Below are positions 12,290-63,010 of a DNA stretch of 64,000 nt, piece by piece. The stretch covers positions 1-64,000 of the forward strand of contig NZ_OANT01000005.1 of the NCBI RefSeq assembly GCF_900096995.1. Direction: 5' to 3'. Within the stretch, counting starts at the first letter, position 1; each line of letters starts with the position of its first letter. Source of the stretch: Acinetobacter puyangensis. GTDB lineage: Bacteria > Pseudomonadota > Gammaproteobacteria > Pseudomonadales > Moraxellaceae. The position numbers and the translations under genes were made by a program. Below the pieces are notes generated by a model. It saw only the letters and a program-made list of their open reading frames with translations, was not told the DNA's origin and searched no databases.

Positions 12290-13135
12290 TTAAGCAGCCA
12301 TTAGAGGTGGCCTTCCTTTATTGGCTTGATGTGGTCTTTCATGATTGTAATGCCTGAGTAGCACTGCTACGCAAGAGTTTGTTGCATAATATTGCACGTC
12401 TTCAAGTGTATCAAATAGATGTTTGCTGAGCCAACTATAACGTATAGTCCGATTATAACGTTCAATATACGCATTCTGCTGTGGTTTACCTGGTTGAATA
12501 TATTCAATACGAATACCGTATTCAGTTGCCCAACGTACGAATTCATGACTGATAAACTCAGGTCCTGAGCAGCATTGCTGCGCAAGGCATCGGATCAATA
12601 ACGGTTTTTCTCGATATTCCAGTAACTGATTGAGTGTTCGAATAACTCGTATTGTCGGTAATGAAAATCCTACTTCAATAGCTAAACCTTCTCGACGGTA
12701 ATCATCAATCACATTTAATAATCGGAATTTGCGACCATCGGAAAGCTGATCGTGCATAAAATCCAGTGACCAGACCTGATTTTCTCGGATGGGTTCTTTC
12801 AATGGTTCAGGCGCATGTCGTTTTAGTCTTCTTCTCGGTTTAATACGCAGATTCAGTGCCAACTCACAGTAAATGCGATAAACCCGCTTGTGATTCCAGC
12901 AGTGACTCTCAACATGCCGTAAATATGAGAAGCATAGACCAAAGCCCCAATCGGAATTTTCCTCAGTGAGTTCAATGAGCTGTTCTGCAATTAAGGCATT
13001 ATCATCACTAAGTTTGGTCTGATAGCGGAAGCAGGTTTCACTTATACTAAATGCAGTACAAGCCAAACGGATACTAACCGCATGCTGGGCAACTGCTTGT
13101 TGAGCCATCTGACGTCGACAAGATGGCTTCACCAC
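12290..13135 (-). CDS. IS3-family transposase OrfB, probably inactive
   Basis: The 281-aa product has the HTH_21 region, then the rve integrase core: VWSLDFMHD (first Asp), [15 protein letters not shown], and [10 protein letters not shown] (Glu). In the usual family motif IRCDNGPEF the second catalytic Asp-Asn is missing: here the protein reads [14 protein letters not shown] because a 21-bp palindromic unit (12566-12586) has replaced the codons. A second 21-bp unit (12355-12375) sits in frame near the C-terminus and replaces the expected Trp-rich stretch before HYNHERPHQ. Both leave the frame open. It overlaps orfA by 7 bp, consistent with -1 frameshift fusion in active relatives. Loss of the Asp should abolish transposition. 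Confidence 0.85.
12355..12375 (+). repeat. Palindromic unit TGAG...CGCAAG inside orfB (copy 1)
   Basis: The unit reads TGAG, arm TAGCA, one base C, arm TGCTA, then CGCAAG (21 bp). It is in frame within the transposase gene and replaces conserved residues. Confidence 0.7.
12566..12586 (+). repeat. Palindromic unit TGAG...CGCAAG inside orfB (copy 2)
   Basis: The unit reads TGAG, arm CAGCA, one base T, arm TGCTG, then CGCAAG (21 bp). Flanks are identical to copy 1 and the arms differ. It replaces the Asp-Asn codons of the CDNGPE catalytic motif, with a net gain of 15 bp. Confidence 0.75.
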
Positions 13136-50233: not shown

Positions 50234-50387
50234 ATATCTGCTTAGTCCCTTGGCTGAACAAGATATGGAAGACATTTTTGACTACACTGTAGAACAATGG
50301 GGTTTTGACCAAGCCATGATTTATTTTGATCATAGCATTTCAAAAATTGGCAGATACATCATATCTAATTGGTCATGCCGGACTTGA
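50226..50387 (+). pseudogene. Truncated ParE-like toxin
   Basis: The frame begins AEYLLSPLAEQDMEDIFDYT, the N-terminus of ParE/RelE-family toxins (about 95 aa). After about 47 residues it runs into a REP-like element at 50372 and stops at 50387, so the C-terminal half with the active surface is missing. Confidence 0.8.
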
Positions 50388-50478
50388 TCCGGCATCCAGT
50401 ACGGTATATGCAAGCAAAACGGTTATGGACGCTCTGGATTCCTGAGATGCGACTAAAGCATCGCAAGGCAGGAATGAC
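50372..50478. repeat. REP-like palindromic element carrying a TGAG...CGCAAG unit
   Basis: The ends are inverted (GTCATGCCGG at the left, CAGGAATGAC at the right). The right part contains TGAG, arm ATGC, seven bases, arm GCAT, CGCAAG at 50443-50467. The element has removed the end of the ParE-like gene. Confidence 0.65.
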
Positions 50479-50544
50479 TGTACGTTAAACTTGACAACCC
50501 TGCTGCCCTAAAGGGCAAAGGGTAATAAATATTGTTTTGAAAGA

Positions 50545-56482: not shown

Positions 56483-56767
56483 TAGGGTCTGTTGACATTT
56501 CGTTTATGATTGCGACAGTGGTTGTTTTTTAGGCAATACGAGGCATGAATAGTGAAATTTAGTTATTCTAAATGAACTATTCATAACGCAGTAGTGTCAA
56601 AAAACAACCCTGTCCCAAAGGGTTGTGGCTAAAATTCCCCCATACGTCGTTACAAAGCTTGACAAGGGAATAGCCATTGCCTTCGGTTTGTCTTGCGGAG
56701 TACACTCCTCATCTGAAGAAATTTTAGCCTACAACGCAATCTATTTATCAAATGTCAACAGACCCTA
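56483..56767. repeat. MITE-like element, copy 2
   Basis: GGGTCTGTTGACATTT and its inverted copy bound the element, with TA outside each end. It matches 16381-16651 in reverse orientation; this copy carries an extra 24-bp patch that includes the palindromic unit at 56692-56711, and the other copy has a different 12-bp patch in the same place. Its right end supplies the stop codon of the GNAT gene. Confidence 0.85.
56692..56711 (-). repeat. Palindromic unit in MITE copy 2
   Basis: The unit reads on the plus strand CTTGCG, arm GAGT, AC, arm ACTC, CTCA (20 bp), that is TGAG...CGCAAG on the minus strand. It is absent from MITE copy 1. Confidence 0.7.
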
Positions 56768-62584: not shown

Positions 62585-63010
62585 TAACGTCAGTTCGGGA
62601 TAAAAGTATTTGTTTTGTATAAATAAAATTAATTTCAATGAAAGAATCACGACGGGGTCTTACAAAAATAGGCATATTTTAGGATTAACTGAGGCATGTA
62701 TGCCGCAAGGTCTTGCACTGCGATTGAAATATATTTCAATCTTGTTCAAGTTCGACCTGAGAGGCATTGCCTCGCAAGGCTTTCGGGAGGAGTGGTATAA
62801 CCACGCAAGGGCAAAACCATCTTGCGCATGAGGAATATATTCCGTAAAGCTGCTCACTGCGAACTCGGTCAAATACCGCTAAAAAACAAATTAATTGAAA
62901 AACATTATTTTGCAGATCCTTGCGCCATATATGGCTCATGACCTCGAACAAGCAGCGGACGCTGCTACGAAACCAATTTCTTCTACTCACCTTATCCCGA
63001 ATTCACGTTA
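62585..63010. mobile_element. 426-bp inverted-repeat-bounded element with a string of short palindromes
   Basis: TAACGTCAGTTCGGGATAA (62585-62603) is matched at 17 of 19 positions by the reverse complement of 62992-63010. Inside, at least five TGAG...CGCAAG-type units lie close together (62690-62709, 62758-62778, 62789-62809, 62829-62849, and 62919-62938 in reverse). Other perfect hairpins accompany them (62705-62716, 62723-62740, 62741-62750, 62951-62966). No protein is encoded and no target duplication is clear. It may be a MITE-like carrier or a landing site in which palindromic units have piled up. Confidence 0.65.

Follow-up and report, generated by a model that had tools for sequence, protein, structure and literature searches.

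The window analysed here, a stretch of 64,000 nucleotides, contains at positions 62585–63010 an element filled with short palindromes, whose arms differ from copy to copy while their flanks, TGAG on one side and CGCAAG on the other, remain the same. This raises the question of whether the palindromes form a single structure or are separate units, recognisable by structure together with flanks, and by what process such units could reach a site. The first-pass annotation had listed five units with arms GCAT, AGGC, TGGT, GAAT and CCAT, two of them with an altered flank (GGAG at 62789 and CGTAAAG at 62829), and two additional hairpins at 62723–62740 and 62953–62968, all inside an element bounded by inverted repeats; units, arms, flank variants, hairpins and bounding repeats were all recovered at these positions.

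Palindromic units and their carrier

The window possesses the following features, the first ten of which belong to the element, hereafter called the carrier.

62585..62603, plus strand: left terminal inverted repeat of the MITE-like carrier, conserved in aligned copies
62992..63010, minus strand: right terminal inverted repeat of the carrier, 89% complementary to the left one over 19 letters
62690..62709, plus strand: unit at site C', inner GCATGTATGC (copy alignment, locus L034)
62723..62740, no strand assigned: other hairpin, ATTGAAAT-AT-ATTTCAAT, part of a ~60-nt insert that long carrier copies have between AACC and GGTT
62758..62778, plus strand: unit at site A, inner AGGCATTGCCT; other copies have AGCTATAGCT or an empty allele
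62789..62809, plus strand: unit at site B, GGAG for TGAG, inner TGGTATAACCA; other copies have AAACATCGTTT or an empty allele
62821..62856, minus strand: reversed outer unit at site D, interrupted by a nested unit; uninterrupted in carrier copy C13a (TGAGCAGCACCGCTGCGCAAG)
62829..62849, plus strand: nested unit, oppositely oriented to the outer one and missing from C13a, inner GAATATATTC, degenerate end CGTAAAG (copy alignment)
62919..62938, minus strand: unit at site E, inner CCATATATGG; empty allele in other copies
62953..62968, no strand assigned: hairpin AGCAGCG-GA-CGCTGCT, a part of the carrier kept with few changes in 13 aligned copies
12355..12375, plus strand: unit TGAG-TAGCACTGCTA-CGCAAG in an IS3-family transposase gene, in frame, six letters replaced
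12566..12586, plus strand: unit TGAG-CAGCATTGCTG-CGCAAG in the same transposase gene, replacing the Asp-Asn codons of DNGPEF
12290..13135, minus strand: IS3-family transposase ORF with these two in-frame units (sequence comparison)
50443..50467, plus strand: long-loop unit TGAG-ATGCGACTAAAGCAT-CGCAAG, located in a different repeat (pattern search)
56692..56711, minus strand: unit TGAG-GAGTGTACTC-CGCAAG, between ORFs (pattern search)

A strict definition of the unit (TGAG, three paired outer letters, an inner length of 10, 11 or 15, and CGCAAG) is satisfied seven times in the 64-kb window, whereas 200 first-order Markov controls average 0.005 such units and never have more than one; the pattern is therefore not due to chance. 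Only three of the seven lie in the cluster, the other four being located elsewhere in the window; the units at 62789 and 62829 fall outside the strict set because of their altered flanks. The search patterns partly impose the fixed flanks. When 89 rows of a single IS family, collected on the basis of similarity, were scanned with a tolerance of one flank mismatch, every unit detected had exact TGAG and CGCAAG.

Among the units, three classes of loop are recurrent: NNN-TATA/TGTA/CATG-NNN, NNN-CAYTG or TAYTA-NNN, and NNN-C-GAYTAAA-G-NNN. When the search places no constraint on the arms, all three outer pairs are present in 112 of the 132 genus matches and 28 of the 31 own-genome matches among those listed (31 of 38 in the own genome). 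Counted as distinct sequences among the listed matches, 18/33 have all three outer pairs, compared with a mean of 2.1 and a maximum of 8 in 2000 shuffles. A wider set gives 27/35 for 10-letter and 32/39 for 11-letter inners (maxima of 9 and 10 in 500 shuffles) and 8/11 for the small 15-letter class (maximum of 6 in 500 shuffles), and is biased upward, part of its DNA having been chosen at palindromic-looking places. The fourth stem pair is likewise above shuffles (32/35, maximum 30; 32/39, maximum 29), and the fifth displays no covariation (22/35 and 23/39; shuffle means 22.6 and 23.1). The wider set includes 14 different outer arms in class 10 and 13 in class 11; ten different fully paired 10-letter inners occur among the 31 listed own-genome matches. 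Arms also vary at fixed places, as paired variants AGGCATTGCCT, AGCTATAGCT, AGGTATTACCT and AGATATTATCT at carrier site A, as TGGTATAACCA, TGGCACTGCCA, TGGTACTGCCA (one T-G pair) and AAACATCGTTT at site B, and as CAG-TATA-CTG and CAG-CATG-CTG at IS site 161; some of these same-site differences may represent independent insertions rather than in-place changes. Because the stems covary, it is the shape that is conserved and not the stem sequence. Complementarity above shuffles thus supports compensated arm changes with fixed flanks, from which the first-pass annotation had inferred units defined by structure plus flanks.

The carrier is found in about a dozen copies in its own genome (G000; 3.78 Mb in 35 contigs) and meets the criteria of a MITE, having terminal inverted repeats, no transposase and several dispersed copies. 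ORFs inside it do not exceed 84 codons; their family membership, the parent transposon and a target duplication remain unidentified, and a search for carrier copies on plasmids gave no match. Among MITEs of Acinetobacter, MITEAba12 resembles the carrier in its terminal inverted repeats, exclusively short ORFs and several copies. MITEAba12 has terminal repeats GGCTTTGTTGCACAAA and a 9-bp target duplication (PMC6382973); the carrier has other terminal repeats, and MITEAba12 duplicates its target whereas the units replace target letters.

The whole carrier folds better than its shuffles (z −5.3 to −6.5), as would be expected if the cluster were a single structured RNA or a MITE hairpin with covarying stems, a reading to which we give hardly any credence: units are missing from other carrier copies, the same units are also found within IS genes, within REPs and between genes, no Rfam match was obtained over the carrier up to E = 1 (so the test for a known structured RNA is not met), and empty and occupied pairs outside the carrier contradict it. 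One structured RNA was rejected on the ground that units are absent from other copies and occur elsewhere.

Some pieces of the window also recur on their own. The GATTGAAATATATTTCAATC piece (approximately 62710–62758) stands without the rest of the carrier in L034 (G000:C17:101021-101469), and matches to this region (query 136–184) recur in other genomes, which may mark it as an insert in its own right. Many of the genus's genomes contain matches to a 28-letter part at 62821–62856. The repeat at 50380–50520 (CTGGATTCC...GGAATGAC region; L036, L046) contains long-loop units in more than one copy.

Occupied and empty sites

In an alignment of 13 carrier copies, units are present in some copies and absent in others. 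The site C' unit is found in four of the 13, the whole insert is absent in eight, and C13a has CACTTCG. Losses of 6–7 letters at carrier sites A, B, C' and D were judged by eye from this alignment; site D in genome G062 loses seven letters, and site E loses six. Occupied and empty alleles thus exist in the MITE carrier and in several IS3-family elements as well, whereas a lack of empty-site alleles in relatives would have spoken against the first-pass interpretation.

Readable occupied/empty pairs number 11 of 16, in which 20, 21 or 25 letters were gained and six (seven pairs) or seven (four pairs) were lost; two of the four 7-letter losses represent one site on different backgrounds. No target duplication is present in the 11 readable pairs, 6–7 target letters being lost instead. 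The five unused rows are MITE-A, MITE-B, MITE-D (neighbouring units misled the matcher), MITE-C' and ISX39 (which landed on 761); the weak MITE C' pair, with a left flank of 15/25, gives five lost letters.

Nearly identical IS pairs fix the junctions to the letter. At site 161 of an ISAba2-like element, plasmid MK134375 reads CTCCC-AAGATA-GGTTG and locus L076 reads CTCCC-TGAGCAGTATACTGCGCAAG-GGTTG, with 706/710 letters identical outside the patch, in which 6 letters have become 20. The same change from 6 to 20 letters separates L096 from pTol5 (408/410 identical outside the patch). Compared with an intact relative at ~89% identity, the IS3 transposase of the window has two units, each in place of six letters. 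In ISX, site 474 loses six letters and sites 761 and 953 lose seven each; at site 39, six lost letters are followed by three changed ones. REPs probably have occupied and empty alleles too: units stand inside REP-like sequences after GTAGGG at two places in the own genome and two in genome G031, with ~7 letters missing relative to neighbouring REPs. This rests on comparison with those neighbours, there being no empty allele of these loci.

Letters beyond the right edge are changed in some cases (four of the next seven in L096, one of the next seven at site 474, three at site 39), and such extra changes make replication template switching or short-patch illegitimate recombination the main rival explanation. 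It would require no dedicated enzyme: with one to three homologous letters as a guide, a stalled strand would copy a remote hairpin and return; single strands would come from natural transformation, hairpins survive exonucleases, and paired arm changes would arise when one arm served as the template for repairing the other. Short-patch double illegitimate recombination is known in A. baylyi. Units of identical sequence occur in unrelated contexts, which suits this process, as does an edge preference that is biased and not fixed: across 78 independent contexts, TGAG is preceded by A in 41, C in 20, G in 14 and T in 3 (A or C in 61/78), and CGCAAG is followed by G in 43, A in 28, T in 7 and never C (G or A in 71/78). 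However, a broad spread of losses would be expected of it, and the loss is six or seven at all 11 readable pairs; moreover, the IS units keep exact flanks even though one mismatch was allowed. We consider template switching rather unlikely. The constancy of the lost length leads us to favour an unidentified enzyme acting on single-stranded hairpins.

The duplex energy between the two flanks averages −6.9 versus −5.8 kcal/mol, beyond all 200 shuffles (72 contexts), and strong enclosing stems (≤ −8) number 19 versus 15.6 expected, with a shuffle maximum of 27. A hairpin loop as a required target was rejected, the excess being only weak. Copying of the arms from the target was likewise rejected, as the arms did not, in general, match the letters that were lost (judged by eye, not computed).

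Distribution and interruption of transposase genes

The pattern TGAGN{8,24}CGCAAG has 64 + 62 matches in the own genome and, read backwards, 15 + 8. For one loop class (class 10), TGAGNNNTRTANNNCGCAAG is found in 93/149 genomes of the genus and its reversed control in 0/149, so that the excess implied by the first-pass reading is seen both in the own genome and in the genus. In the family, TGAGNNNTATANNNCGCAAG occurs in 58/249 genomes and 4/16 genera. Beyond Acinetobacter only genus g10 is prominent (3/4 genomes, 4 to 7 copies each); g5 and g9 together have five single matches, and the control has three matches outside the genus. All 97 plasmid records matching the window's IS3 element are from Acinetobacter. 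The sampled high-copy loci of G126 (20/20) and G062 (18/18) each collapse into two families with shared flanks, meaning that carriers were amplified and that true insertion events are fewer than copies; the high copy number of these genomes was therefore rejected as proof of unit jumping. In G062 (L174, L176, L179) and in the own genome (L039/L040), inverted unit pairs lie ~18–20 letters apart with their TGAG ends facing, in a REPIN-like manner.

The ISAba2-like family was sampled by scoring about two best candidates per genome, plus a few other loci. Among its 89 rows, which include double fetches (L076/L250, L255/L322, L262/L316), 36 have between one and three units, located at the five positions 39, 161, 474, 761 and 953 in mosaic combinations (161+474, 161+761, 161+474+761, 474+761, 39+161, 39+761). 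Flanks agree with an empty copy in 55–60 of 60 letters per side in most rows, several having 53–54 and the lowest readable 51; L298 at 795 and L315 at 658 are without a usable match. On a FastTree tree of 86 rows, from which three short copies were left out, site 761 needs 10 changes (11 rows, with L298 and L315 uncounted under the position rule), site 161 needs 9 (19 rows) and site 474 needs 5 (7 rows), numbers that recombination between IS copies can inflate. Either the same place has been hit repeatedly, or very short tracts have been exchanged between IS copies, and a same-site occurrence can therefore be such an exchange and not a new insertion. At site 761, L291 and L292 share letters 4–5 positions out, on both sides, with the empty relative L239, and these letters are absent from most other unit-bearing copies at that site. 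Recombination within IS copies also contributes to the mosaics.

Plasmid annotation supports an IS3 assignment for relatives of the window IS and for the ISX, L069, L096 and L071 types; several further IS3 assignments of unit-interrupted transposases, and the motif names used here, are our presumption. A unit replaces Asp-Gln of HSDQGSQY in L071, takes parts of Ser-Asp-Arg of HHSDRGVQY at ISX 953, and at ISX 761 takes the Gln-Leu-Trp that directly precedes VSDFTY. In L069, L071, L096, L204, L205, L207, L230 and L232, the loss is of Asn-Cys or Gly-Asn immediately ahead of (W/CH)DNAxxE. Units are placed after HS in L193 (another IS) and after MDGK in L211. Sites 161 (in OrfA), 474 and window 12355 lie outside the named motifs, and site 39 precedes OrfA. 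If motif codons are indeed hit more often than expected, a possible reason is that units can move between IS types where the codons are conserved.

Frames are open on both sides in 22/101 unit contexts, among which only IS3 transposases were identified by family search. At loci with a coding-strand CAGTATACTG unit the proportion is 8/12 (e.g., 231 + 75 and 243 + 63 codons), and dN/dS between open-frame pairs is 0.05–0.31, with dS up to 0.94. Both values would suit functional insertions, in which recoding, bypassing or splicing leaves the gene working. We find this highly improbable: four of the 12 loci (L187, L200, L206, L211) are not open on both sides, units of 20 letters break the frame or add an in-frame TGA, and the lost Asp-Asn, Asp-Gln and Asn-Cys codons could not be restored by excision. 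The nearly identical empty relative of L096 implies that the coding constraint predates the insertion. Unit-bearing transposases are very probably inactive, as inferred from the lost codons, and with conserved codons gone from its transposase gene, an IS copy that carries a unit should no longer be autonomous. In genome G014, three loci (L187–L189; the L187 frame is not open) share a unit and its position in what seems to be one IS3-type element, which suggests that unit-bearing copies can still be moved.

Known systems and a possible mechanism

No description of a TGAG–CGCAAG hairpin family was found in the literature searched, which did not cover most subscription journals. The first-pass statement that no described family has this pattern holds to that extent, and the format itself is REP-like. 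Like REPs and REPINs, the units are small, high-copy palindromes with little loops and, at one end, a short tag that stays unpaired, and they too occur as inverted pairs (e.g., C12:35408/35447). The test of an unpaired conserved tag at one end is met in three loop classes. Three further REP tests are not met: the tag is TGAG and not GTAG, CGTC or a listed degenerate form, the stem is not conserved within the family in a genome, and no associated RAYT is flanked by the same repeats. The units also differ in their CGCAAG tail and free stem letters, and in replacing 6–7 target letters, in IS genes and REPs, with no cognate RAYT seen. REPs and REPINs are proposed to act as single-stranded hairpins (PMC2817692, PMC3116915, PMC3733652, PMC8266576) and complementary changes occur in REPIN spacers (PMC3116915). 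The GTAG/CGTC palindromic repeats combine an unpaired tetranucleotide tag with a stem-loop, as the units do, some lie within genes, and stem or loop sequence is what distinguishes one family from another (PMC3733652). No word begins with TGAG in PMC3733652 or PMC2817692, nor with "Acinetobacter" in PMC3733652.

Mitochondrial hairpin elements of sponges and fungi offer a further comparison. As described in PMC2800124, they are thought to be mobile, include an in-gene hairpin insert without a frameshift, and have conserved stems, variable loops and a few complementary substitutions. The units display a largely reverse pattern, and the mitochondrial elements belong to organelle genomes. Single units also fail the MITE test of a target duplication.

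Searches for a mobilising enzyme were confined to PF01797 and NF047646, and none was found for the units. The own genome lacks any match to the Y1 transposase model PF01797, which matches 26/149 genomes of the genus, without association: class-10 units are present in 17/26 genomes with a match and 76/123 without. The IS200/IS605 test (Y1 in the genome or tracking with the units) is thus not met, and a Y1/IS200 transposase was rejected as mobiliser, being absent from the own genome and not tracking with units. The RAYT model NF047646 matches 12/148 genomes, the own included (two above cut-off). The own match lies below the cut-off (E 5.5e-11) in a 180-codon ORF, L325 (G000:C24:300800-305300, ORF 1950–2492), which PF01797 misses; it is ringed by GTAGGGGCGTATTGCATACGCCC and GTAGGGGTCTATTGTATAGACCC REPs (of the GTAGGGGCGTAT... 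type), and one unit lies ~240 bp upstream, inside one of those REPs.

It could be argued that the units are ordinary REPs or REPINs moved by a RAYT (TnpA-REP), unusual only in their tag, given the common format, the inverted pairs, the complementary changes in REPINs (PMC3116915) and the unit near the own RAYT-like gene. We regard this as improbable, since the repeats at that gene are GTAGGGGCGTATTGCATACGCCC and similar, with the unit inside one of them, and six of the 12 RAYT-matching genomes have class-10 units. That the unit sits in a REP of another type indicates that units can be inserts in REPs and are not that gene's own; as the cognate REP of the RAYT-like gene they were rejected, the surrounding repeats being of another type.

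The units occur as discrete presences and absences, with 20–25 letters in place of 6–7, their stems covary, and they share positions on different IS backgrounds. Most likely they are REP-like mobile hairpins whose insertion relies on a single-strand process yet to be identified; no movement has been observed directly. On balance we lean, without great assurance, towards one genus-wide family of very small mobile hairpins, each swapped as a single strand for 6–7 target letters. In the putative format, a TGAG tag that stays unpaired leads into a stem whose letters vary freely so long as they pair (covariation backs four pairs) and which closes on a small loop; the CGCAAG tail is likewise unpaired, and G or A is the usual next letter. 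The hairpin would be recognised as single-stranded DNA by its shape and flanks, and an enzyme or a replication-coupled process would exchange it for the target letters; both steps are inferred. IS200/IS605 and TnpA-REP proteins act on single-stranded hairpins (PMC8266576). Further spread may be second-hand, with carrier MITEs amplifying together with their units and unit-bearing IS copies being transferred and recombining with empty ones.

A bolder claim, that these hairpins of 20–25 letters, recognised by their shape and flanks and with stems that evolve freely, constitute an undescribed class of mobile element which an unknown single-strand process exchanges for a constant 6–7 letters, and which builds up in other mobile elements and disarms them at conserved catalytic codons, is possible, and we offer it only tentatively. 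Any mechanism must explain the near-constant replacement of 6–7 letters, along with the shape-defined hairpin, its fixed flanks, the repeated use of particular sites and the lack of a linked gene in the searches made. The units visibly interrupt transposase genes, and they may influence both IS activity and the annotation of pseudogenes in Acinetobacter.
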